NCBI RefSeq assembly: GCF_900185725.1
Contig: NZ_FYAU01000008.1
Location: 1 to 64,000 of the forward strand
Reading direction: 5' to 3'
Length of the DNA: 64,000 bases
From: Stappia sp. TSB10P1A
GTDB taxonomy: Bacteria; Pseudomonadota; Alphaproteobacteria; Rhizobiales; Stappiaceae
The notes beneath the pieces are model-generated. The model searched no databases. It was not told the DNA's origin and saw nothing but the letters and a program-made list of their open reading frames with translations. Positions 3,313-50,051 of this stretch are shown piece by piece. Position 1 is the stretch's first letter; every line of letters starts with the position of its first letter. Position numbers and translations under genes: made by a program.

Positions 3313-5196
3313 CTAGCTCCGCATCAGGATATCGAAGAGTTCTCTCACCACCTGCATCACCCGCGCATTGGCCGCATAGGCATTCTGCAGGGTGACGAGA
3401 TGCGCCAGTTCCTGGTCGACATCGACCTTGGAACTGTCGTCAAGACGTGTCTTCAGGTTCTGGGTTACCACCTGCTGGCCGGCCAGAGCCGCTTTCGCCT
3501 GGGCGGAACGCCCGCTTTGATGCGAGACGCTGGCGGTGACGAAGTCGGCGATGGAGCCCTTGAAGACGGAGCTGCTGCCGCCGATCCGGGTGCCCGGCGA
3601 GAAGGCCGTCGACGTCCCCTTCAGCTTGTCGAGGATCGCCTGCGGCCGTGTCGCATCGCCGGTGGCGACCCCGGGCGCATACTCGACGAGCAGCGCCGGG
3701 TCGTTCAGGATCTCCTGCGACACACGGATGCGCGAGGCGAAGCCGGTGGTGTTGGGTCGCCCGTCCGCAATCCCCGTGAACGCGCTGCCATTGTCGTCGA
3801 CGAAGAGCGAGAACGCATCGCCAAAGGCCGAGGAACTCCCGGCGGTTTCCAGGGCGCTGAGCCGCTCGATACGAACGCTTCCCGGTGCCGTGCTCTCCAG
3901 CCGAAGGGTCGAGCCGCCCGGAGCGGAGGCTGCGAAGGTGCCCGCACCGATCCGCGGATCGGCGTCGAGAGCCGCCTGGATATTGGCGGCGATGGTGGTG
4001 TAGTCGCCGCTGGAGAAATCGACAGCCAGGAAGATGTCGTTGGAATCGTTGGTTGCCGTCAGGGCCGGCGGGGTCGGACCATCGCTGCGATAGATGGTGA
4101 CCGACTTGGTTCGCCCGGTGGCGAGATCCTTGTACTCGAAGCTGAGACTGTCGCCCGGCTGCAGGTTGGCAAGATCGACCTCGTAGCCGGTCTGAACGCC
4201 GGCATCGATATGAGGCGTTCCCTGCTGCTCGTGCGTGGAGAAGGCGCGGGCGACGGCTGCGGCGATCTCGTCGAGCTGGGTCTGGGCATGCACCAGCGCC
4301 TCGTCGCGCATGTTGATGAGGCCGGCAATCGACCCGCTGCGCAACGTCCGTGTCGAAAGCAGGTCGATCTGACTGCCCTCGGAATTCTCCAGGACCAGCG
4401 TTCCAACGCCCCGCAGGTCGCCATCCATCGAATAGAGCGCGTTGGAATTGACGCTGCCGCGGGCATCGAACTTCAGCTTCATCACGTCGACATCGTAGAG
4501 CAGCGTGCCGCCACCCATGTGGATGCGGACGCCGCCTTGCTCCGTCGGCTTGACCGTGATGTCGATATATCCCGCAAGTTCCTCCAGCATCGTGTCGCGC
4601 TTGTCCATCAAGCCGACGGGGGCAGACCCGTCCTGCGAGGAAGCGACGATCTGGCGGTCGAGCTGCTGAATGTCCGCTAGAAGCGCATTGACCCGGTCGA
4701 CCTGGTCGGCGATCTGGTACTCGACCTCCTGCCGCATCGACTGGATGTCGTTGGACATCGAGTTCAGCTTGCCCGCCAGTTGCTCCGCCATGCGCAGGAC
4801 TTCGAGCCGGTTGGAATAGTCCTCCGGCCCCGAGACAAGGTTCGACATCGATGCCAGGAAGGCATTGTAGGAGTTCGACAGCGAGCCGGCATCGCCGATC
4901 GTCCCGAACAGGGTGTCGATCCGCGCCAGATATTGCTGCGAGACCGAGGCGTAGTTGTATTCCGCCAGCGAGGTGCGGTACTGGCTCTGGACCGCCACAT
5001 CCAGGTATCGGCGCATGCTGTCGACATTGAGGCCGGTGATCCGGCCGTTGCCGTCATAGGCCGCCGAGGCGCTGATCGACTTGCGCGTGTAGCCGACAGT
5101 GTCGGCATTGGCGATGTTGCTCGCTGTCACATCGAGCTGGCGCTGGTTGTAGCCAAGCCCGATCAAAGCGGTATTGAGAGCGCTGCTCAGTCCCAT
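3313..5196 (-). CDS. flgK: FlgK, flagellar hook-associated protein 1
   Basis: FlgK (HAP1) forms the first ring of the hook-filament junction. The 627-residue product starts MGLSSALNTALIGLGYNQRQLDVTASNIANADTVGY, the rod/hook-family N-terminal helix with the ASNIANADTxGYTR motif. The C-terminal 80 residues carry the matching helix (LVTLQNAYAANARVMQVVRELFDIL). The middle of the protein is the variable exposed domain. The gene lies 80 bp downstream of flgE, with a G/C-rich hairpin between them, and 8 bp upstream of flgL. It is probably read through from the flgE promoter, with some attenuation at the hairpin. Confidence 0.92.
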   Translation of the reverse strand: MGLSSALNTALIGLGYNQRQLDVTASNIANADTVGYTRKSISASAAYDGNGRITGLNVDSMRRYLDVAVQSQYRTSLAEYNYASVSQQYLARIDTLFGTIGDAGSLSNSYNAFLASMSNLVSGPEDYSNRLEVLRMAEQLAGKLNSMSNDIQSMRQEVEYQIADQVDRVNALLADIQQLDRQIVASSQDGSAPVGLMDKRDTMLEELAGYIDITVKPTEQGGVRIHMGGGTLLYDVDVMKLKFDARGSVNSNALYSMDGDLRGVGTLVLENSEGSQIDLLSTRTLRSGSIAGLINMRDEALVHAQTQLDEIAAAVARAFSTHEQQGTPHIDAGVQTGYEVDLANLQPGDSLSFEYKDLATGRTKSVTIYRSDGPTPPALTATNDSNDIFLAVDFSSGDYTTIAANIQAALDADPRIGAGTFAASAPGGSTLRLESTAPGSVRIERLSALETAGSSSAFGDAFSLFVDDNGSAFTGIADGRPNTTGFASRIRVSQEILNDPALLVEYAPGVATGDATRPQAILDKLKGTSTAFSPGTRIGGSSSVFKGSIADFVTASVSHQSGRSAQAKAALAGQQVVTQNLKTRLDDSSKVDVDQELAHLVTLQNAYAANARVMQVVRELFDILMRS

Positions 5197-37430: not shown

Positions 37431-38612
37431 ATGGCTGACACGGGCACGCCGAGCGCGATCCGCGAGAGCGATTACGAAACGCTTCTGACCGCCCTGACGG
37501 ACACCGATCGCGGCCGCTGGTTCCTGGACGAATACATCCGCCGCAACCAGAAGCCGGAAACCCAGATGGTGCTGGACGCCATCGCCCGCCTGGAAAAGGT
37601 GATGGTGCGCGAGCGCACGGTGCCCAGCATCGACCGGATTCGCCTCGACATCGCCGACATGCAGGAAGCGATCGAGCGCACCAAGCGCGAGATCTCCAAC
37701 ATCAAGCATGAGCAGGAAGAGGGCAACCGCTTCATCGAGGCCTCCAACGAGCTCGACGCCATCGTCACCAAGACCGAGAGCGCGACCCAGGAAATCCTCG
37801 CCGCCGCCGAAGCGATCCAGGAGACCGCCTGGACGCTGCGCGAGAACGGCGCGGACGAGGCGAGCTGCGACGACATCGACGCCCGCGCGACCGAGATCTT
37901 CATGGCCTGCTCGTTCCAGGACCTGACCGGCCAGCGGACGCAGAAGATCGTCCAGGTGCTGCAGTATCTGGAGTCCCGCATCAATCTCATGGTCTCGATC
38001 TGGGGCATCGAAGGCAGCCAGGCGGAAGATCCGAAGTTCGTCGAGGACAAGCGCCCGGACGCGCATCTGCTGAACGGACCGCAGCTCGAGGGCAAGGGCG
38101 TGTCGCAGGACGCCGTCGACGAGATGTTCGGCGGCGAGGCGAACATGGACTTCGACGGTCTCGAGGCCGGCGCCGATGCGTCCGGCGAAGCGGAAGAGGC
38201 CGAGGCCTTCTCCGGCTCCATCGCCTCGGCCGACGAGATCGACGCCCTCTTCGCCTCGGACGCGGCGGAGACCGGCGCCGACGTGTTCGATGCCGCCGAC
38301 GAGGACGCGGACGGGTCCGGCGACGATACGTCCGCGCCTTCGGCGGGGCTCGATTTCGACGACATCGATTTCGCCGATGCAGACGTTTTCGAGAAGCCCG
38401 GCCGGCCGCAGCCGGACATCGCCCCGGTGGACGACTTCGACGATGTCGTGATGGTCGACAGCGAGGAGGCCGCCGCCTGGGATGCCGAGTTCGAAACTCC
38501 GGACCCGCAGCCGGCCCGGCCGGCGCCGAAACGGGCGATCCTGGACAGCGGCGAAAGCGACGACCCGCTCGACCGCCTGTCCCCCGGCGAGAAGCAGTCG
38601 CTGTTCAGCTAA
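37431..38612 (+). CDS. cheZ: CheZ-like chemotaxis phosphatase with acidic C-terminal extension
   Basis: CheZ dephosphorylates CheY-P. The 393-residue product carries the long four-helix core from about 40 to 200 and the signature FMACSFQDLTGQRTQKI. The catalytic pair corresponds to Asp164 and Gln168 (E. coli D143 and Q147). Residues from about 215 on are an Asp/Glu/Ala-rich tail of low complexity that ends in GESDDPLDRLSPGEKQSLFS, possibly a CheY-binding peptide. No other che gene is adjacent. The DUF2336 gene follows after about 100 bp. Confidence 0.85.
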   Translation: MADTGTPSAIRESDYETLLTALTDTDRGRWFLDEYIRRNQKPETQMVLDAIARLEKVMVRERTVPSIDRIRLDIADMQEAIERTKREISNIKHEQEEGNRFIEASNELDAIVTKTESATQEILAAAEAIQETAWTLRENGADEASCDDIDARATEIFMACSFQDLTGQRTQKIVQVLQYLESRINLMVSIWGIEGSQAEDPKFVEDKRPDAHLLNGPQLEGKGVSQDAVDEMFGGEANMDFDGLEAGADASGEAEEAEAFSGSIASADEIDALFASDAAETGADVFDAADEDADGSGDDTSAPSAGLDFDDIDFADADVFEKPGRPQPDIAPVDDFDDVVMVDSEEAAAWDAEFETPDPQPARPAPKRAILDSGESDDPLDRLSPGEKQSLFS

Positions 38613-38712
38613 CGGCAGCCCGCCCTTTGTCCTTTGTCCTTCGCCCTTGGACCTGCGGCCGATTGTCTGTATCTCTTCGCTCGGGGGCACATTGTGGCAA
38701 TGGACGGGGCGC

Positions 38713-39762
38713 ATGATCCGTGACCGGCTGGAGCAACTGGCAAGGACACGCGAGCCTTCGGCGCGCTCCGAACTCGTGCGCCTGCTCAGCGCCCAATATG
38801 CCGACAAGCTGGAGCGGGAGCCGACGGAAGCCGAGCGCCAGCTCTTTTCAGGCCTCGTGCTCGACGTCTTCGACCAGCTCGACCATTCCGTGCGCCTCGA
38901 CATCGTCGTCCGCCTCGCCCGCACGGCCCGCATCACCCAGCCGCTTGCCGACCGCCTGACCGAGGAGCCCTTCGACGTCAGCGAGCCGGTGCTGGAACAC
39001 TCGCCGGTGGTCAGCGCAGACAAGCTGCTCGAGGTGTCCCGCACGAGGTCGAACCGCCACCGGCTGGCGATCGCCCGCCGCCTCCATGTCCCCAAGGACA
39101 TCGTCGACACGCTGATCGCCCGCGGCACATTCCCGGTGATCAACGCCCTGCTGCACAATCGCGGCGCCGAATTCGCCGTAAGAGCGCTGCTCGCGATCCT
39201 GATTCTCTCGGGCAGCGACCAGCGGCTGCTCTGGGCGCTGGCCCAACGCTGCGCCCTGGACGACGGCTTCCGCGACGACATGCGGATGATCTCGCAGACC
39301 GACTGCCCCTTGATGCCGGACGACCTGGAGCGGGCGCTCGATGATCCGCAGCAACTCGGCCGGCTGGCGGAGCGGGCCATTGCCGACGACCGGGATGCCG
39401 GACTGGAGGTCGCGGGCGAGCAATTGTCGCGTCACGAGATCCACATCCAGATCGCCTCGGGCGAGCTGAGCTTCGAGAGCATCTTCCTGACGCTGATCGA
39501 ACGCAAGGACATGGCGGGGATCATCTGGCTGGTGTCCCGCCACCTGTCCTTGCGCGACTCGACGGTGCGCGACACCTTCGCCTCGCAGGCCGGCGGGGCC
39601 GTCGCGCTGCTGATGAAGGAGACCGGCATCGGCCCCAAGGCCTATGGCAGGTTCCTGCGGCTCAGATGCGACTGGCTCGGCATCAACAGCAAGACCGTGG
39701 CGCAGGACGTCTACAACTATCGGACGATGCGGCACCCCGGCGGCCGGCGCGCCTTCAACTGA
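38713..39762 (+). CDS. DUF2336 protein
   Basis: DUF2336 proteins are a mainly alphaproteobacterial family of unknown function. The 349-residue product is almost entirely helical and Arg/Leu-rich (DQLDHSVRLDIVVRLARTARITQPLADRL, then NRHRLAIARRLHVPKDIVDTLIARGTFPVINALLHNR), suggesting a HEAT-like repeat fold, which is inference. The ATG at 38713 starts the domain. It lies about 100 bp downstream of cheZ on the same strand and may be co-transcribed, hinting at a chemotaxis or motility role. Confidence 0.8.
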   Translation: MIRDRLEQLARTREPSARSELVRLLSAQYADKLEREPTEAERQLFSGLVLDVFDQLDHSVRLDIVVRLARTARITQPLADRLTEEPFDVSEPVLEHSPVVSADKLLEVSRTRSNRHRLAIARRLHVPKDIVDTLIARGTFPVINALLHNRGAEFAVRALLAILILSGSDQRLLWALAQRCALDDGFRDDMRMISQTDCPLMPDDLERALDDPQQLGRLAERAIADDRDAGLEVAGEQLSRHEIHIQIASGELSFESIFLTLIERKDMAGIIWLVSRHLSLRDSTVRDTFASQAGGAVALLMKETGIGPKAYGRFLRLRCDWLGINSKTVAQDVYNYRTMRHPGGRRAFN

Positions 39763-41051: not shown

Positions 41052-42086
41052 TCACGCCGCGCCGCGAGACTGCGCGATCTCGGCAGCGTGCAGGCAGTTG
41101 CCGAGAAACTGGCGAGTGCTGGCCTGCCAACTGTAGGACAGCGCCACCTCGCGGCAGCGCTCGCGCGAGATCGCCAGTGCCGCCACCGCCGCGCGGCCGA
41201 GATCCTCGTCCAGCACGCCGGCCCCGGTGCCCTCGAGAATGTCGAGCGGCCCCATCACCGGATAGGCCGCGACGGGAACGCCGGCCGCCAGCGCTTCCAG
41301 CAGGACATTGCCGAACGTGTCGGTGCGGCTCGGGAAGACGACCACATCGGCGGAGGAATAGTGCCAGGCGAGATCCTCGCCGGTCTTCGAGCCGGTGAAC
41401 AGGACCTGCGGATAGCGCGCGCGCAGATCCGCCAGTTGCGGCCCGTCGCCGACCACCACCTTCGTTCCGGGCAAGTCGAGATCGAGAAAGGCGGCGATGT
41501 TCTTCTCCACCGCCACGCGGCCGACATACATGAAGATCGGCCCGGCGATCCCCTCGCCCAGGGCGCTGCCCTCGCGCGGGCGGAACAGCTCGTGATCGAC
41601 GCCGCGCGACCAGCGCATCAGCTTGGTGAAGCCGCGCGCCGTCAGGTCCCGCTCCAGGGTCGGCGTTGCCACCATGCAGCCGTGACCGGCATTGTGGAAC
41701 CCGCGCAGCCAGGCATAGGACCAAGACATCGGCACCGGCATGCGGGCCGACAGATATTCGGGAAAGCGGGTGTGATAGCTGGTGGTGTAGACGATGCCGA
41801 GGCTGCGCGCGACGCGGGCGGCCATCAGCCCGAGCGGGCCTTCGGTGGCGATGTGCAGGTGATCGTAACCGCCGGCCAGCACCCGCCGCCGCAGCGCCGC
41901 CGGCGTCGTCAGCGACAGGCGGATCTCCGCATAGGTCGGGCAGGGAACGGTGAAGAAATCCGCCGGCGACAGCACCTCCACCGGCATGTCCATCCGCAGC
42001 AGTTCCTCGACGGTCCGCTCGATGGAGCGCACCACGCCGTTGATCTGGGGATGCCAGGCATCGGTGACGATCAGCAGCGACTTCAT
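41052..42086 (-). CDS. agt: GT4 glycosyltransferase, Agt-like (glycolipid synthesis)
   Basis: This is a 344-residue family GT4 glycosyltransferase. The N-terminus has the MKSLLIVTDAWHPQINGVVRS acceptor-domain start. The C-terminal donor-binding segment reads VFPSRTDTFGNVLLEALAAGVPVAAYPVMGP, with the EX7E-like pattern. It overlaps by 4 bp the metallophosphoesterase gene upstream. Gene pairs of this kind (plcP-agt) make glucosyl- or glucuronosyl-diacylglycerol from phospholipid-derived diacylglycerol when phosphate is scarce. An alternative is an unrelated mannosyltransferase. Confidence 0.7.
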   Translation of the reverse strand: MKSLLIVTDAWHPQINGVVRSIERTVEELLRMDMPVEVLSPADFFTVPCPTYAEIRLSLTTPAALRRRVLAGGYDHLHIATEGPLGLMAARVARSLGIVYTTSYHTRFPEYLSARMPVPMSWSYAWLRGFHNAGHGCMVATPTLERDLTARGFTKLMRWSRGVDHELFRPREGSALGEGIAGPIFMYVGRVAVEKNIAAFLDLDLPGTKVVVGDGPQLADLRARYPQVLFTGSKTGEDLAWHYSSADVVVFPSRTDTFGNVLLEALAAGVPVAAYPVMGPLDILEGTGAGVLDEDLGRAAVAALAISRERCREVALSYSWQASTRQFLGNCLHAAEIAQSRGAA

Positions 42087-42892
42087 GCCGCCGCCTGCGC
42101 CCGTCCGGTGGCACGGCTCTCGGCAGCCTGCACGTGCCGCGCCGCCTCCGCCCAGCGGATGATCTCGAACGTGCCGTCGTGATGCTCGGCGACGGCGGTG
42201 CAGCTTTCCACCCAGTCGCCGGTGTTGATGTAATGGGTGCCGAACTCGTGATGGTCGGCGGCATGGTGGATATGGCCGCAGATCACCCCGTCGACGCCCT
42301 GCCGCTCCGCCTCCCCCGCCAGGGTCTCCTCGAACTTGCCGATGAAGTTGACCGCGTTCTTGACCTTGAGCTTGGCCCAGGCGGACAGCGACCAGTAGGT
42401 CAGCCCCAGCCGCCGGCGCAGCACGTTGAGACCGGTGTTGAGGTTGAGCGCGCTGACATAGGCCCAGTCGCCGAGGAAGGCGAGCCAGCGGGCATGACGC
42501 ACCACCACGTCGAAGCGGTCGCCATGGATGACGAGATAGCGGCGACCGTCGGCCGTCTCGTGCACGGTTTCCTCGATCACCTCGATGCCGCCGAAATGCG
42601 TGCCGAGGAAATCGCGCAGGAACTCGTCGTGGTTGCCGGGCGTATAGACGATGCGGGCGCCCTTGCGCCCCTTGCGCATCAGCTTCTGCACCACGTCGTT
42701 ATGGGCCTGCGGCCAATACCACATGCGCCGCAACCGCCAGCCGTCGACGATGTCGCCGACCAGATAGATGGTCTCGGCATCGTGATACTTCAGGAAATCG
42801 AGAAGCATGTCCGCCTGGCAACCACGCGTCCCCAGATGGATATCGGACAGAAAGATCGCCCGGAAATGTCTCGGGGCCGGCTCGGAGGACAT
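42083..42892 (-). CDS. plcP: metallophosphoesterase, PlcP-like phospholipase C
   Basis: This is a calcineurin-type phosphoesterase of 269 residues, often annotated UDP-2,3-diacylglucosamine diphosphatase-like. The metal motifs are SDIHLG (Asp17, His19), GDIVDG (Asp47), PGNHDE (Asn87, His88), VIHGDRFD and CGHIHHAAD. Rhizobial PlcP, which cleaves the head group from phospholipids under phosphate limitation, has the same layout (from memory, including CQADMLLDFLKYHDAETIYLVGD). A Pho box lies 45 bp upstream, and the glycosyltransferase downstream is translationally coupled. AGGAG is seven bases before the ATG at 42892. A role in lipid A synthesis is less likely given this context. Confidence 0.75.
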   Translation of the reverse strand: MSSEPAPRHFRAIFLSDIHLGTRGCQADMLLDFLKYHDAETIYLVGDIVDGWRLRRMWYWPQAHNDVVQKLMRKGRKGARIVYTPGNHDEFLRDFLGTHFGGIEVIEETVHETADGRRYLVIHGDRFDVVVRHARWLAFLGDWAYVSALNLNTGLNVLRRRLGLTYWSLSAWAKLKVKNAVNFIGKFEETLAGEAERQGVDGVICGHIHHAADHHEFGTHYINTGDWVESCTAVAEHHDGTFEIIRWAEAARHVQAAESRATGRAQAAA

Positions 42893-42936
42893 GGCACGCT
42901 CCTGACAAGACTTTGAGCGTCTAAATGCGCGATTCC

Positions 42937-42954
42937 GGTCTCAGAAATATGACA
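42937..42954 (-). promoter_or_regulatory. Pho box (PhoB site) upstream of plcP
   Basis: On the minus strand the sequence CTGTCATATTTCTGAGAC is a perfect first half (CTGTCAT), a 4-bp spacer and a partial second half (CTGAGAC versus CTGTCAT). About 10 bp further on is CATTTA, a plausible -10. The site is 45 bp upstream of the plcP ATG. Confidence 0.72.
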
Positions 42955-43131
42955 GGCGGCGGAAAACGACTCGAAAGACGGCACCGAAACCTGTCCGCAT
43001 TGCCGCCGGCGCAGGACAGGACCTGCGGCAGGGCCGCGCAACTGGACGGGACGGGGACGGGTCCGCTATCAATCGGCAACGATCACCGGAGGGGCCCCCG
43101 CCCCGTCCGGGCGACACTCGGGAGACACGAC

Positions 43132-43911
43132 ATGGATCTTGGACTTAGCGGCCGCAAGGCGATCGTCTGCGCCTCCAGCCGGGGCCTGGGGCGCGGCTGC
43201 GCCGAGGCGCTGGCCGAAGCCGGCTGCGACCTCGTCATCAACGGGCTCGACCGGCTCCGCCTCGACAAGACCGCCAGCGAGATCCGCTCCCGCTACGGCG
43301 TGACCGTGACCCCCGTCGTCGCCAATGTCTCGACGCAGGAAGGCCAGGAGGCGCTGCTCGCCGCCTGCCCGCAGCCGGATATCCTCATCAACAACAATGG
43401 CGGCCCGCCGCGCCGCGACTATCGCGAACTCGACCGCGAGGCGATGATCGACGGCGTCATCCAGAACATGGTCTCGCCGATCGAGATGATCCAGAAGGTC
43501 GCCGACGGAATGGCCGAGCGCGGCTTCGGCCGCATCGTCAACATCACCTCGATCACCGTCCGCATGCCGCTGGAGGGCCTGGACCTGTCGAGCGGCGCAC
43601 GCGCCGGCCTCACCGCCTTTCTCGCCGGCGTCTGCCGGACCTATGCGGGCCGCAACGTCACCATCAACAACCTGCTGCCGGGCAAGATGGACACCGACCG
43701 GCTGCGCGGCGGCATCGAACGGGCGGCCGGCCTGAGCGGCCGCAGCGCCGACGACATCGGCCGGGCGCAGCAGGCGGAAATCCCGGCCGGCCGCTTCGGC
43801 ACCGCCGAGGAGTTCGGCCAGATCTGCGCCTTCTATTGTTCGCAGCACGCGGCCTATGTCACCGGGCAGAACATCCTGATCGACGGCGGCCTCTACCCGG
43901 CCGCCTTCTGA
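43132..43911 (+). CDS. SDR-family protein with altered catalytic motif
   Basis: This is a 259-residue short-chain dehydrogenase/reductase-like protein. The nucleotide motif is CASSRGLGRG (a TGxxxGxG variant) and NNNGGPPR replaces NNAG. The catalytic serine is present (Ser140 in NITSITVR), but the YxxxK motif reads Ser153-x3-Arg157 (SSGAR). It therefore probably lacks classic oxidoreductase chemistry or uses a changed mechanism; a subfamily with this SGARAG sequence exists. The C-terminus ends in the normal GQNILIDGGLYPAAF. The ATG at 43132 follows GGGAG. It is convergent with fadL across a strong terminator. Confidence 0.83.
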   Translation: MDLGLSGRKAIVCASSRGLGRGCAEALAEAGCDLVINGLDRLRLDKTASEIRSRYGVTVTPVVANVSTQEGQEALLAACPQPDILINNNGGPPRRDYRELDREAMIDGVIQNMVSPIEMIQKVADGMAERGFGRIVNITSITVRMPLEGLDLSSGARAGLTAFLAGVCRTYAGRNVTINNLLPGKMDTDRLRGGIERAAGLSGRSADDIGRAQQAEIPAGRFGTAEEFGQICAFYCSQHAAYVTGQNILIDGGLYPAAF

Positions 43912-43988: not shown

Positions 43989-45323
43989 TCAGTAGCCGCG
44001 CGCGCTGTCGTAGTCCGGCCGCGCCGCCGGCCCGCCCCAACGGTAGCGCAGCGACGCCGAGACGATGTTCACATGCGCATTGGCCTTGCCGACATAGCTG
44101 CCGACATTCGGGTTGTAGTCCTGATGGCCCGGAGCGATGTTGATGTTGGCCTTGCCCGCGTGGATATAGGTGTAGCCGAGGTCGAGGGACATATCGTCGG
44201 TGACCTTGTAGCTGGCGCCGGCCGACAGCCACAGCCGGTCGGTATCCGGCAGGCGGGTCGAGCGGATCTTGTCGGTGATCGGCGAGATCTCGTAGCCGAT
44301 ACCGGCACGCATCGTCAGGGCGTCGGTGACGTCGTACTCGCCGCCGATGGCGAAGAACCAGGCATCGCGATAGTTGAAGTGCAGCGTCTGCACGGTGGCG
44401 CCCGTCGCCTGCGAGGTGACGCGCGGCGACTTCAGCCGGCTCCAGTTGGTCCACTCGACCGTGCCGAAGACGCGGAAGGCGTCGGTGACGCGCTGCTTGG
44501 CCGAGAAGTTGATCATTTCCGGCGTGACCAGCCCCGCGTCGATCGCCGTCAAGCCGGCGGGCGTCTGGATGTTGCCGTCGAGCGACTGGCTGATTCCCGA
44601 GCGGAAGCCGAGGCCGAGCTCGGTGCCCTCGAACGGCTTGAAGGTGACGCCCGCCGTCACGCCGAAGCCGACATCGTCGCCGTCCAGGATCGCCGAGGGG
44701 TAGCCCGGAACATTGGGGAGCGCCGACTTCAGGGTGACCTTGAAATACTGGACCTGGACGCCGAAGGCGAAGGACAGCATGTCGTTCAGCTTGTAGCCGA
44801 TGGTCGGCGTCACGTTGACCGACATCACCTTGGAGGTTCTGGAATAGAACTGCCCCGCCCAGTTCTGGTGCGGCTTGGTGGTCAGGCCGAAGGGCGCGTT
44901 GATCGACAGGCCCAGAAAGATCTGGTCGGTGAGCTTGTAGGCCGTGTAGGACGCCGGCACATAGCCCTCGCTGCCGATGTCGCCCGAGGGCGCCGAACTC
45001 GGCGTCAGGCCGAGCACGCCGGCACCGATGGCCGAAGGCGTGAAGTTGCCGGTGATCTCGGCATTGGGAGCAATCAGCGAGTGATGGCTCTCAAAGGTGA
45101 ACCCCTCCCCGGCCCCGGTGATGGTCGCCGGGTTCCAGAACATCGACGAGATCGACGGACCGGTGGTGCCGCTGCCGGCGAACGACATACCCTGATAATA
45201 GGCGCTCTGCTCGCGCAAAGCGAAACCGCCGGCGAAGGCGGATGTTGAAGCAGACACCACCGCAATGGCAGCGGCGGACAATAGAAGGCTCTTCCTCGTA
45301 AGTGCCGTGCTCGTGAGTGCCAT
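43989..45323 (-). CDS. FadL/OmpP1-type outer-membrane porin
   Basis: The 444-residue product belongs to the FadL/TodX family for uptake of long-chain fatty acids or hydrophobic compounds. A Sec signal peptide ends near residue 31 (TSAFA-GGFALRE). The mature N-terminus GGFALREQSAYYQGMSFAG includes the family hatch motif, and SSMFWNPATITG is also typical. The protein ends in an aromatic beta-strand (YDSARGY). The ATG at 45323 has GGAGG upstream. No fad genes are adjacent. The acyl-CoA ligase at 58514 is 13 kb away and any link is inference. Confidence 0.85.
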   Translation of the reverse strand: MALTSTALTRKSLLLSAAAIAVVSASTSAFAGGFALREQSAYYQGMSFAGSGTTGPSISSMFWNPATITGAGEGFTFESHHSLIAPNAEITGNFTPSAIGAGVLGLTPSSAPSGDIGSEGYVPASYTAYKLTDQIFLGLSINAPFGLTTKPHQNWAGQFYSRTSKVMSVNVTPTIGYKLNDMLSFAFGVQVQYFKVTLKSALPNVPGYPSAILDGDDVGFGVTAGVTFKPFEGTELGLGFRSGISQSLDGNIQTPAGLTAIDAGLVTPEMINFSAKQRVTDAFRVFGTVEWTNWSRLKSPRVTSQATGATVQTLHFNYRDAWFFAIGGEYDVTDALTMRAGIGYEISPITDKIRSTRLPDTDRLWLSAGASYKVTDDMSLDLGYTYIHAGKANINIAPGHQDYNPNVGSYVGKANAHVNIVSASLRYRWGGPAARPDYDSARGY

Positions 45324-45678: not shown

Positions 45679-48600
45679 TCACTCCGCCGCCTGCGGCAGA
45701 GCCGGCGCGGGGTCCGGTGCACGCTCTGCCGTGTCCTGTTTCGCAGGTCCGATATCGGACTTGCGGCCGGTTTCCCCGGCGGGGGTCTTGGGCGCGTTCA
45801 CCTCCGCTTCCGTCCTGTCCAGCCGGCGGCGGAACCAGAGCGCATAGAGCGCGGGCATGAACACCAGCGTCAGCACCGTCGCCACGGTCAGGCCGCCGAT
45901 CATCGAGATCGCCATCGGCCCCCAGAAGATGTTCATCGTCAGCGGGATGAAGGCGAGCACGGCCGCCAGCGCGGTCAGGATCACCGGCCTTGCCCGGCGC
46001 ACGGTGGACTCGATGATCGCCTCGCGCATGGTCGCCCCGGCCTGCAGATCGTGGTCGATCTGGTCCGCCAGGATCAGCGTGTTGCGCATCACCATGCCGC
46101 CCAGCGCGATGACGCCGAGAATGGCGACGAAGCCGAAGGCGGCATCGGCGATCAGCAGCGCGGCGACCGCGCCGATCAGGCCGAGCGGGAACGTCATGAA
46201 CACCAGGATGGTCTTCGAGAAGGACTGCATCTGCAGCATGATCAGGACGGCCATCGCCAGGAACATCAGCGGAAACACCTTGGCGAGCGCCGCATTGGCC
46301 TTGGCCGATTCCTCCGCCGCCCCGCCGGTATCGATGCGATAGCCCGGCGCCAGGGTCGCCTCGATCTCGCGCATCGTCGGCAGCAGGGCCGCGGTGACGT
46401 CCGGCGCCTGCACGCCGGCCGCCACATCCGCCCGCACCGCCAGCACCGTCTCGCGGTTCCGCCGCCACAAGATCGGATCCTCGGCGGTGTAGTCGATCCG
46501 CGCCACCTGGGACACCGGGATCGCCCGCCCGTCGCGCACCTGCAGCACCATGTCGGCGATATCGCCGAGCGCGGCGCGCTCCGCCTCGTCCGCCCGCACG
46601 ACCACCCCGACAGAATGCCGTCCCTCGCGCAGCGCCGTCACCTCGTATCCGGACAGCAGCGTCTGCAGCGACTGGCCGATCTCCGTCGTCGACAGCCCGA
46701 GGGCGCGGGCCCGGTCCTGATCGACCTCCAGCCGCACACTCTTGACCTTTTCGCCCCATTGCAGCTCGACATTGCGCGTGTCCGGGTGGGCGCGCATCGC
46801 ATCGCGCACCCGCGCGGCAATGGTCCGCACCTCTTCCAGATCCGGCCCGACGACGCGGAACTGCACCGGATAGCCCACCGGCGGCCCGAGTTCGAGCTTG
46901 TTGGCGCGCCCGTTCACCACCCCCTCGGCCTCCGCGAACCGGGCCTGCAACTCCTTGACGAGGGCCGTCGTATGCTCGCCGCCCTTGGTCTGGACCAGGA
47001 TCAGCGCATAGCTCGGGTTGGGCAAGGCCGGGTTGTAGGCGAGGAAGAAGCGCGGCGCGCCCGCCCCCACATAGGTGGTGAAATAGTCGACATGCTCGCT
47101 GGTCGCGAGCCACGCCTCCAAGGCCTTCGCCTCCCGGTCGCTCGCCGCGAAGGAGGCGCCTTCCGGCCCCTTCAGCTCGACCAGCACTTCCGGGCGCGAG
47201 GAGCTGGGGAAGAACTGCTGCTTGACGAAGCCCATGCCGTAGCCGGCCGCGACCAGCAGCCCGATGGTGGCCAGCACCACCGGCAGACGGAAGCGCACCG
47301 CGCCGGTGACCAGCCGGCGCAGGCGGTTGTAGGCCGGCGTGCGGTAGATCGCGTCCTCGTCCTCGTGCCCGCGCTCGGCCGCGTGGCGCTCCAGCGAGCG
47401 CGGCAGCAGCTTCAGCCCGAGATAGGGGGTGAAGACGACGGCGACGATCCAGGAGACCAGCAGCGCGGTCGCGACGACCCAGAAGATGCCGCCGGCATAT
47501 TCGCCGGCCGCCGACGCGGCGAAGCCGACCGGCAGGAAGCCGGCGACGGTGACCAGCGTGCCGGTCAGCATCGGGAAGGCGGTGGATTCCCAGGCGAAGG
47601 TCGCCGCGCGGGCCCGGTCCCAGCCCTGCTCGATCTTCACCACCATCATCTCGATGGCGATGATGGCATCGTCGACCAGGAGCCCCAGCGACAGGATCAA
47701 CGCGCCCAGCGAGATGCGCTCCAGATCGATGCCCATCTGCATCATCGCCACGAAGGTGGCGGCGAGCGTCAGCGGCACCGACAGGGCAACGATGATGCCG
47801 GTGCGGAAGCCCAGCGACAGGAAGGACACGAGAAGCACGATCGAGATGGCGACGGCGAATTTCAGCAGGAACTCGCCGACGGCCTCCTCCACCACTTCCG
47901 GCTGGTTCGAGACCTGGTGCATCTCGGCCCCGAGGGGGAGCCGCGCCTCGATCTCGGCCGCCTTCTCATGCAGGCGCTCGCCGAGCTCCAGCACGTTGCC
48001 GCCCGCCGACATGGCGACGCCGATCATGATCGCGTCCTCGCCATTGTAGCGCGACACATAGCTTTGCGGATCGGCGAGGCCGCGGGTCACCGTCGCGATG
48101 TCGCCGAGCCGGAACACCCGGCCCTCCGCCTGCACGGGCACGGCCGCCACCGCCTCGATGCCCTGCAGGCTGCCGCTGACGCGCACCTGCACCGTCTCAC
48201 TCGGCGTGTCGACGGAGCCCGACGGAACCACTGCGTTCTGCGCCGCCAGCGCATCGAAGATCGCGCTGACGGGAATGCCGAGGGTGGCGAGCTTGGCATA
48301 GGAGATATCGACATGGATCTTCTGGTCCTGCTCGCCGAAGAGCTGGACCTTCTCGACGCCCTCGACCGCCAGGAAGGACTGGCGCGCCATTTCGGCAAGA
48401 TCCGACAGTTCGCTCCAGGTCGCGCCCGGAGCCGTCAGCGCATGCACCTGGACATAGACGTCGGCATATTCGTCGTTGAAGAAGGGGCCAAGCACGCCCT
48501 GCGGCAGGTCGCCGGAAATATCGCCCACCTTCTTGCGCACCTGATACCACAGGTCCGCGACCTTCGAGGGGGGCGTCGCGTCGTCGAGGACGATCTGCGT

Positions 48601-48879
48601 CGCCATGAAGCCCGGCCGGGTATAGGTCTCCAGCCGCGACAGCCAGGGCAGCGTCTGCAGCCGGGTTTCCACCCGGTCCGCCACCTGCTCCTGCATCTCC
48701 TCAGCGCTCGCGCCGGGCCAGACCGCCGTCACCACCATCACCTTGACGGTGAAGGACGGGTCTTCGTTGCGGCCGAGATTGCCATAGGCGTAAACGCCGG
48801 CGACCGCGGTGACGAGGATGAAGAAGAGAACGAGCGTCTGGTGCCGAATGGCCCAGGCCGACAGGTTGAAGCTGCTCAT
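45679..48879 (-). CDS. RND-family multidrug efflux transporter
   Basis: This is an inner-membrane RND pump of 1066 residues, of the AcrB/MdtB family. It starts MSSFNLSAWAIRHQTLVLFFILVTAVAGVYAYGNLGRNEDPSFTVK. The proton-relay aspartate pair is in SLGLLVDDAIIAIEMM (near residues 401-403). Two repeats of six membrane helices flank two periplasmic pore domains. The ATG at 48879 overlaps the adaptor stop by 4 bp. No outer-membrane factor gene is adjacent, so a TolC-like protein elsewhere must be used. Controlled by the divergent TetR gene (inference). Confidence 0.92.
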   Translation of the reverse strand: MSSFNLSAWAIRHQTLVLFFILVTAVAGVYAYGNLGRNEDPSFTVKVMVVTAVWPGASAEEMQEQVADRVETRLQTLPWLSRLETYTRPGFMATQIVLDDATPPSKVADLWYQVRKKVGDISGDLPQGVLGPFFNDEYADVYVQVHALTAPGATWSELSDLAEMARQSFLAVEGVEKVQLFGEQDQKIHVDISYAKLATLGIPVSAIFDALAAQNAVVPSGSVDTPSETVQVRVSGSLQGIEAVAAVPVQAEGRVFRLGDIATVTRGLADPQSYVSRYNGEDAIMIGVAMSAGGNVLELGERLHEKAAEIEARLPLGAEMHQVSNQPEVVEEAVGEFLLKFAVAISIVLLVSFLSLGFRTGIIVALSVPLTLAATFVAMMQMGIDLERISLGALILSLGLLVDDAIIAIEMMVVKIEQGWDRARAATFAWESTAFPMLTGTLVTVAGFLPVGFAASAAGEYAGGIFWVVATALLVSWIVAVVFTPYLGLKLLPRSLERHAAERGHEDEDAIYRTPAYNRLRRLVTGAVRFRLPVVLATIGLLVAAGYGMGFVKQQFFPSSSRPEVLVELKGPEGASFAASDREAKALEAWLATSEHVDYFTTYVGAGAPRFFLAYNPALPNPSYALILVQTKGGEHTTALVKELQARFAEAEGVVNGRANKLELGPPVGYPVQFRVVGPDLEEVRTIAARVRDAMRAHPDTRNVELQWGEKVKSVRLEVDQDRARALGLSTTEIGQSLQTLLSGYEVTALREGRHSVGVVVRADEAERAALGDIADMVLQVRDGRAIPVSQVARIDYTAEDPILWRRNRETVLAVRADVAAGVQAPDVTAALLPTMREIEATLAPGYRIDTGGAAEESAKANAALAKVFPLMFLAMAVLIMLQMQSFSKTILVFMTFPLGLIGAVAALLIADAAFGFVAILGVIALGGMVMRNTLILADQIDHDLQAGATMREAIIESTVRRARPVILTALAAVLAFIPLTMNIFWGPMAISMIGGLTVATVLTLVFMPALYALWFRRRLDRTEAEVNAPKTPAGETGRKSDIGPAKQDTAERAPDPAPALPQAAE

Positions 48880-50051
48880 CGCAGGGCTCCGACCTGAACC
48901 GGACCCTGCGCCTGTCGCAGCACCGCGTTGATCTTCAGGCCCGGATCGAGCCGGTGAACGCCGAGGCTGACCACATGGTCGCCATTCGCAAGGCCGGAGA
49001 GGATCGCCCGCTCCGCCTCGATCCGGCGGACCACGACAGCGACCGCCTCGACCCGCTCCGCTCCGGGAGCCGCCCGCCAGACATGCGGCGTGGCGCCGGA
49101 ATACCACACGGCGGTCAGCGGCACCGCGACCTCACCCTGCGGGGCCGCATGCTCGAGATGGACACTCGCGGTCATGCCGAGCCGCGCGTCGGCGCCCGGA
49201 TCGTCGAGGGCGAAGCGCGCGGTGAAGGTGCGCGCCGCCGTGTCGGCGACCGGCGACAATTCGCGCAGCCGGGCCTGATAGCGACGGTCGGGGCTGGCCC
49301 AGAGCGTCACGCTGGCGCGCGCGTCGGCAAGCCCCGTCACCTGCGCCTCGGGAATCGCCACCTCGACCTCCCGCTCGGCATCGCCGGCGATGCGCACGAT
49401 GCCCTGGCCGGCGGCGACAACCTCGCCCGGCTCGGCCATCACCGCCGTCACCACCCCGTCGCGATCCGCCTTCAGGCTCGCGTAGTCCAGTTGATTCGCC
49501 GCGAGGATGCGCTGCTCGACCGCCGCCTTCAGCGTGGCGGCGGCGGCGTCGTCCGCCGCGACCGCCTGATCGAGCGCCGCCTGCGAGACATGCCCCTTGT
49601 CCTTGAGGGCGCCGACGCGGATGCGATCCTCCGCCGTGCGCCGGGCCTGTGCCTCGGCGGCGCGCTCTTCCGCCTGCCGCGCCCGCAGCGCCGCGTTGAG
49701 GTCGTTCTCCTCGAGGCTGGCGATCGGCTGGCCCGCCGCGACCCGGTCGCCGACATCGACGAGCCGCGCCGAGATCTTGCCCCCCACCCGGAAGGCGAAA
49801 GGCGCATCGCTGCGCGCATGGACGGTTCCGGAGAATGTCACGCTGCGGCCATCCGCCGGGACGGCCGGCTCGACCCAGACCACGCGCGGCGTCGACGCAA
49901 CGTCCGCCTCCTCCGACGCCTGGGGCTGGCAGCCGGCGATCACCCCCGCCAACACCAGCATGGGCCCGAGCCGCCCGCCGATGCGCCGCAGACGGAAAAG
50001 CGCGGCAGTGGGGACAGCAAGCGCGGGAAATGCGGGTAAGCGGCTCATCAT
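48876..50051 (-). CDS. RND periplasmic adaptor lipoprotein
   Basis: This is the membrane-fusion subunit of the pump, 391 residues from the first ATG of an ATG-ATG pair. An N-terminal lipobox (LVLAGVIAGC, Cys near residue 40) indicates a lipoprotein. Family blocks follow: the lipoyl half RVGGKISARLVDVGDRVAAGQPIASLEENDL, an alpha-helical hairpin (ALRARQAEERAAEAQARRTAEDR), the second lipoyl half, and a beta-barrel and membrane-proximal part. It overlaps the pump gene by 4 bp and is the first gene of the operon. Confidence 0.9.
   Translation of the reverse strand: MMSRLPAFPALAVPTAALFRLRRIGGRLGPMLVLAGVIAGCQPQASEEADVASTPRVVWVEPAVPADGRSVTFSGTVHARSDAPFAFRVGGKISARLVDVGDRVAAGQPIASLEENDLNAALRARQAEERAAEAQARRTAEDRIRVGALKDKGHVSQAALDQAVAADDAAAATLKAAVEQRILAANQLDYASLKADRDGVVTAVMAEPGEVVAAGQGIVRIAGDAEREVEVAIPEAQVTGLADARASVTLWASPDRRYQARLRELSPVADTAARTFTARFALDDPGADARLGMTASVHLEHAAPQGEVAVPLTAVWYSGATPHVWRAAPGAERVEAVAVVVRRIEAERAILSGLANGDHVVSLGVHRLDPGLKINAVLRQAQGPVQVGALR

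Follow-up and report, generated by a model that had tools for sequence, protein, structure and literature searches.

A GANTC site at a fixed distance from the Pho box in plcP-agt promoters of Stappia and related bacteria

Introduction

Is the exchange of membrane phospholipids for glycolipids in phosphate-limited bacteria controlled by phosphate alone, or does the promoter that drives it also carry a site for the DNA methylation machinery? The question is raised by the plcP-agt gene pair of Stappia sp. TSB10P1A, which lies within the 64,000-nucleotide stretch analyzed here (positions 1 to 64,000 of the forward strand of contig NZ_FYAU01000008.1, RefSeq assembly GCF_900185725.1; hereafter, the window). 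Upstream of plcP, a GAATC, one form of the GANTC site of the methyltransferase CcrM, stands between a Pho box, the predicted binding site of the phosphate regulator PhoB, and a weak -10-like hexamer, and we find that a GANTC is held at exactly this place in most of the plcP loci that we compared across the order.

As a phosphate-saving lipid-swap operon, plcP-agt is already known and is the ordinary part of this locus. Remodeling by plcP-agt enables bacterial growth in phosphorus-poor water and soil, and the papers cited here treat it as a Pho response. Mutants in plcP, agt1 and agt2 and recombinant Agt1 and Agt2 have been studied in Pseudomonas aeruginosa (PMC8528852), deletion of plcP-agt in Methylosinus abolishes glucuronic acid diacylglycerol (GADG) and leaves monoglucosyldiacylglycerol (MGDG) unaffected (PMC9239053), deletion of plcP in Phaeobacter MED193 abolishes the betaine lipid diacylglyceryl trimethylhomoserine (PMC4796936), and a SAR11 Agt expressed in E. 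coli yields both MGDG and GADG (PMC4796936). The operon described here resembles those of Pelagibacter HTCC7211, Erythrobacter NAP1, Methylosinus trichosporium OB3b and P. aeruginosa (PA3219-PA3218) in having the same two genes in the same order, and, as here, Pho boxes have been reported for marine plcP-agt clusters and for Pseudomonas. In contrast to the promoter described here, the excerpts of this work do not mention GANTC for the promoters of the known operons, and the P. aeruginosa stretch that we inspected is free of GANTC over the 300 nt that precede the annotated start of plcP. Searches of open-licence papers (supplements excluded) returned none linking GANTC to plcP or to the Pho regulon, and among such papers only one brings GcrA, GANTC, promoter and CcrM together with PhoB (PMC5172544); the main text of an Ensifer methylation paper names neither plcP, SMc00171, PhoB nor phosphate (PMC8725594). 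As far as such literature searches reach, a composite promoter of Pho box and GANTC appears to be undescribed.

Results

The plcP promoter is read on the minus strand. Its Pho box, CTGTCAT-ATTT-CTGAGAC (42938..42955, read 42955->42938), is followed after 2 nt by GAATC (42931..42935, read 42935->42931), which begins exactly at +20 from the start of the box and ends 3 nt before the -10-like hexamer CATTTA (42922..42927, minus strand; +28 to +33 from the box start); the AGGAG ribosome-binding site of plcP lies at 42899..42903 on the same strand. An earlier model-made note, the sequence-only reading, had described the perfect CTGTCAT, the 4-bp spacer, the partial second half and the distance of 45 bp to the ATG, all of which stand, except that the box runs one base beyond the end given for it; the -10-like element that it also named is found, in weak form, at the expected place. 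The GAATC between the two was absent from that reading.

We aligned the upstream regions of 97 distinct plcP loci of the order (102 fetched, 5 duplicates dropped), which outside the window's own family number mostly one or two per genus. The comparison revealed a pentamer almost as strictly conserved as the Pho box: GANTC stands exactly at +20 in 74 of them and at +19 or +21 in none; counting only the first locus per genus or per family, it is found at +20 in 38/52 genera and 15/24 families. Its middle base varies (A 61, C 9, G 3, T 1), and the information content per column, computed across 46 genera (G 1.36, A 1.43, N 0.44, T 1.50 and C 1.23 bits, with direct neighbors at 0.2-0.4), has the shape of GANTC itself. 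The other 32 GANTCs in the 160-nt upstream intervals are scattered, so that about 0.2 would be expected at +20 (a hand estimate), and over 200 rounds of shuffling the 42 nt after the box, on average 0.36 and never more than 2 of the 97 loci had one at +20. When any GTCAY served as anchor, so that the second half-site played no part (68 sites in 52 genera), the matching offset of +18 occurs 40 times and the next offset 3 times. The box finder itself was blind to GANTC and misplaced the box in at least two loci where a GANTC at +20 is visible (L072 and L120); the automatic counts were kept throughout.

Named records with the site at +20 include Sinorhizobium meliloti (GAGTC), Shinella (GACTC) and Methylobacterium bullatum (GAATC). 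The S. meliloti strain Ak57 locus, whose plcP homologue is presumably SMc00171, named a Pho regulon phospholipase C (PMC3596328), resembles the Stappia locus in its box, ATGTCAT-CATC-CTGAAAC, as well as in its GAGTC at +20, but differs in that the next annotated gene after plcP encodes an MFS transporter rather than Agt; the GANTC element therefore goes with plcP.

Two controls bear on what the site belongs to. Among pstS promoters of the order (the best 30 loci from 116 matching of 149 genomes), GANTC at +20 was found in 0/30, which led us to discard the view that all Pho promoters carry it, pstS being the sole other Pho promoter compared; two pstS loci (L126, L127) have a GANTC at +22, within a further GTCAT repeat. 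When plcP loci from elsewhere in the class were taken, it was likewise found at +20 in 0/60, of which only 17 have a clear box (score of at least 14), and a general association with plcP was set aside in turn; these 60, from other orders, were chosen across many families from 124 matching of 290 genomes (5/124 from the window's own order).

An exact scan for the composite element TGTCAYAWWNNTGAKAYNNGANTCG, with one genome per species, returned 43 stretches, of which 36 lie 60-187 nt before plcP, in Stappia, Roseibium/Labrenzia, Pannonibacter, Breoghania, Rhodobium, Amorphus, Methylobrevis, Chthonobacter and others. The seven that do not precede plcP come from Clostridiales, Methanimicrococcus, Bacteroides, Rossellomorea, Marsarchaeota, Ruminococcus and a metagenome-assembled genome of Hyphomicrobiales (L224), the last of which alone was inspected; we take all seven as chance, about 15 being expected for random sequence by a hand estimate. 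Because the pattern is strict and fits Stappiaceae best, the scan tests specificity rather than spread. Within the Stappia sp. TSB10P1A genome, the composite element has one exact match, at plcP, and with up to three mismatches it has 6 sites versus 4 in the control.

The Pho box itself departs from the classical CTGTCAT-N4-CTGTCAT at 3 of 14 positions, and with up to three mismatches that consensus matches 182 sites in the genome versus 63 for a reversed-pattern control; it is thus too weak to decide alone, and we relied on the local form of the box and on its conservation upstream of plcP. The box of the pstS promoter in the same genome, TTGTCAC-AAAA-GTGATAC, suggests that the local second half-site would be TGATAC or TGAGAC. 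The pattern TGTCAYAWWNNTGAKAY (TGTCAY-AWW-NN-TGAKAY) matches exactly at plcP and pstS only in 5.13 Mb, and with one mismatch at 3 sites versus 1 in the control; having been written after both sites had been seen, it speaks for specificity and is not a blind discovery. One further one-mismatch box, at C28, precedes an open reading frame (ORF) that we took by eye for a TRAP-type binding protein, and was dropped.

The pstS hexamer TATAAG begins at +28 from its box start, where plcP has the weaker CATTTA, and across 46 genera the mean match to TATAAT at +28 of plcP is 2.17/6 versus 1.29 in the stretch after it. We named pstS by its place before pstC (TIGR02138, above cut-off), pstA, pstB, phoU and phoB, its own model score being 150 bits, below the cut-off of 206.6; the PhoB of this cluster passes TIGR02154 with 345.4 bits (cut-off 296.2). 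With a Pho box at -35 distance and in a form common to pstS, the plcP-agt pair is very probably an operon controlled by PhoB. In several genera (L030, L041, L043, L111 and other loci) the distance from the box to the inferred start of plcP is 100-157 nt, pointing to either a longer leader or a misplaced start codon.

The two genes lie on the minus strand at the coordinates given by the sequence-only reading: plcP (42083..42892; ATG, 269 aa), a metallophosphoesterase of phospholipase C type with a Pfam Metallophos domain, and agt (41052..42086; ATG, 344 aa), a GT4 diacylglycerol glycosyltransferase with GT4 Pfam domains, the stop of the former and the start of the latter overlapping by 4 bp as ATGA (42083..42086). 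PlcP contains SDIHLG, GDIVD, GNHD, HGD and GHIH, which we take to be the metal-site motifs of metallophosphoesterases. A tblastn search gave 64.3% identity with the S. meliloti Ak57 homologue (1e-113) and 56.5% with a homologue in a P. aeruginosa plasmid record, versus 24.5% for E. coli LpxH (1.6e-7). Of the two NCBIfam LpxH models, one gives 42 bits (cut-off 134) and the other 38.9 bits (cut-off 190.35). These values bear out the earlier proposal of a PlcP-like enzyme, with no closer similarity to LpxH or to enzymes of LpxI context, and on the same grounds we ruled out LpxH as the identity of the first gene; LpxI is encoded elsewhere in the genome. In the P. aeruginosa record, the gene after plcP is a glycosyltransferase that also overlaps by 4 bp and is 50.9% identical to Agt of the window, and we take the S. 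meliloti and P. aeruginosa homologues to be the studied PlcPs, judging from the species, the single place per record and the P. aeruginosa neighbor gene. The expectation that routine annotation would misname plcP also proved right: of 25 homologues listed (from 32 plasmid-collection records), 20 are annotated as "UDP-2,3-diacylglucosamine diphosphatase" and the remaining 5 have no gene annotated.

Agt carries GRVAVEKN at 189 and FPSRTDTFG at 251, as in the published GRVAXEKN and FPSXTDTFG motifs, and these, with its 50.9% identity to the P. aeruginosa partner, support its assignment as an Agt, within the GT4 family already named from the letters. Its R190, K195, D256, T257, F258, G259 and W320 have numbering identical to that of GTcp, a characterized Pelagibacter enzyme of the Agt/GTcp group of GT4 (PMC8231724), and its catalytic His stands at 105 (104 in GTcp); Arg163 of GTcp is probably R161 in Agt, as judged by context without an alignment. 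Homology thus supports the lipid-remodeling interpretation, from which induction by phosphate limitation and glycolipid formation are predicted.

In the order, plcP is common (352/396 genomes; 52/61 relatives), and agt adjoins it (within 300 bp) in 96 of the 97 loci, at Agt identities of at least 49.5%. In a scan of named genomes, the nearest plcP relatives are in Stappia, namely S. indica SBBC 49 (PlcP 94.9%, Agt 88.4%) and Stappia sp. WLB 29 (95.9%, for a PlcP truncated where the available sequence stops); the genus-level search covered 13 other genomes of the genus. Two species of the genus (L020, L021) have CGAAGTCG instead of CGGAATCG, so that the CcrM site is lost with the Pho box intact, and they offer natural test strains.

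Beside the conserved GANTC, the genome encodes a CcrM homologue with N6_N4_Mtase and RAMA domains, whose best NCBIfam match is the Caulobacter CcrM model (636.8 bits, below its cut-off of 830), and two GcrA genes. One gcrA lies convergent with phoB beside the phoU/pst genes (L124 3186-3728, plus strand, and 3885-4583, minus strand; C40 of the same genome, about 73.2-74.6 kb), so that PhoB and GcrA, whose meeting at the plcP promoter we propose, are encoded side by side; the second GcrA-family gene is at C40:310764-311231 (L063).

Discussion

We propose that, at low phosphate, phosphorylated PhoB would bind the box at 42938-42955, occupy the -35 region and recruit sigma70 polymerase to the weak -10, whereupon PlcP would cut the phospholipid head group to leave diacylglycerol and Agt would add glucose or glucuronic acid to it, saving phosphorus. 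CcrM would methylate the GANTC between box and -10. Sensed either by sigma70-bound GcrA or by polymerase directly, the methylation state of the site would modulate the promoter and so couple the glycolipid switch to replication and the cell cycle. We think that the GANTC is probably a functional CcrM site in this promoter, and we find it about equally probable that the promoter has two inputs, PhoB activation and a CcrM (perhaps GcrA) layer; GcrA as the reader is a more tentative suggestion.

There are precedents. In Caulobacter, the cell-cycle-regulated start sites that have a GANTC between -10 and -35 form a group whose activation falls at 40-60 min (PMC4287350). Genes whose expression drops in a ccrM mutant are enriched for a conserved GANTC (PMC3973325), and efficient binding of GcrA at 80 loci depends on CcrM (PMC3667746). 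The plcP promoter resembles the Caulobacter cell-cycle promoters, such as podJ P2 with GANTC at -24, in holding the site between -35 and -10, but differs in that they serve cell-cycle genes and that no PhoB input is named for them in the excerpts of that paper (PMC4287350). A second likeness is to the Caulobacter promoter P169 of elpS (CCNA_00169), which is PhoB-dependent and whose GANTC methylation changes on phosphate starvation, PhoB raising it (PMC5172544); unlike the plcP promoter, P169 serves a different gene, is shielded by MucR, and has no fixed array of Pho box, GANTC and -10 described in the excerpts (PMC5172544). The extended motif of GcrA, YGAKTCK (PMC7987155), fits the bottom strand of the plcP site in part. 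These precedents, together with P169 and the partial YGAKTC fit, lead us to favor a PhoB promoter that is also methylation-sensitive.

A number of observations weigh against this interpretation. By automatic count, 23/97 loci and 14/52 genera have no GANTC at +20, among them the two Stappia species described above, and Sinorhizobium K101 has GAGTT. The 97 loci are a non-random set of best matches and hand-picked additions that leans to higher PlcP identity, with low-identity families thinly covered. In the 17 clear-box loci from other orders, the two GANTCs close to this position sit at +19, one base nearer to a Pho-like box (L156, L209), and may represent an independent gain or an older form. 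The fit to YGAKTCK is good for Y (36/46 genera) and K (38/46) and poor for the last K (13/46). In Agrobacterium tumefaciens, 24% of random genes have a GANTC within 200 bp upstream, so that presence alone means little, and the main text of the same CcrM-depletion study does not contain the word "lipid" (PMC11514494). Finally, mutation of the P169 GANTCs left phosphate induction in place and raised basal activity to 136% (PMC5172544), a result that argues for a role in tuning the promoter and not in switching it fully on or off.

The strongest alternative is a plain plcP-agt operon under PhoB alone, in which GANTC would be kept for a structural reason, namely contact of PhoB or sigma70 with the spacer, and its methylation would have no regulatory role. 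The pathway is established (PMC4796936, PMC9239053, PMC8528852) and a Pho box suffices for phosphate control, some genera and the two Stappia species do without the site, and the P169 mutant is still induced by phosphate starvation (PMC5172544). We nevertheless consider this explanation rather unlikely, since the pstS boxes of the same order lack the site (0/30), and since the four fixed letters are those of a CcrM site, whereas the middle base is less constrained and the neighbors drift. Less likely still would be a GANTC that serves as a hypomethylation mark, with bound PhoB and polymerase blocking CcrM during starvation so that the site would keep a record of recent starvation while affecting transcription only weakly. 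With 2 nt separating it from the box and 3 nt from the -10, the site is within reach of both proteins, and bound MucR and CtrA can shield GANTC (PMC5172544), but at the sole PhoB promoter with GANTCs that has been studied PhoB raised rather than lowered methylation (PMC5172544). Last, it is highly improbable that the first gene encodes LpxH, an enzyme of lipid A, and that an envelope glycolipid or lipopolysaccharide sugar is the product of the pair, a reading favored by the public annotation above and by a solved-structure search giving one sequence only, named an LpxH-type hydrolase, but opposed by LpxH models far under cut-off, the much higher identity to the S. meliloti homologue than to E. 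coli LpxH, the LpxI in the genome, the Agt motifs and a Pho box common with pstS.

If the two-input promoter is real, a CcrM site held at one position across the sampled genera would tie the composition of the membrane to DNA methylation and replication. It would also represent a metabolic target of CcrM preserved through long evolution, in contrast to GcrA/CcrM regulons, which are reported to be rewired even between close relatives (PMC7987155). A bolder version, which we regard as conceivable though somewhat short of probable, is that phospholipid replacement in Hyphomicrobiales is an epigenetically gated AND switch, in which phosphorylated PhoB would supply the phosphate signal and CcrM methylation of the GANTC fixed between Pho box and -10, read by GcrA-sigma70, would restrict or time the response. 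Such a switch could perhaps give daughter cells different membrane programs or a memory of starvation, and the composite of Pho box and GANTC would then be a dedicated, ancient signature of plcP promoters.

The intergenic region of plcP is shared with a divergent short-chain dehydrogenase, a family named by eye (43132..43911, plus strand; the listed ORF runs from 42925, and 43132 is an in-frame ATG that we chose), which we do not claim as a member of the plcP-agt system. Elsewhere in the window, judged by eye from translations, adjoining genes encode CheZ-like and DUF2336-like proteins (37431-38612 and 38482-39762, both plus strand), and a FadL-like outer membrane protein (43989-45323) and an RND-type efflux pump gene (45679-49107) lie on the minus strand.

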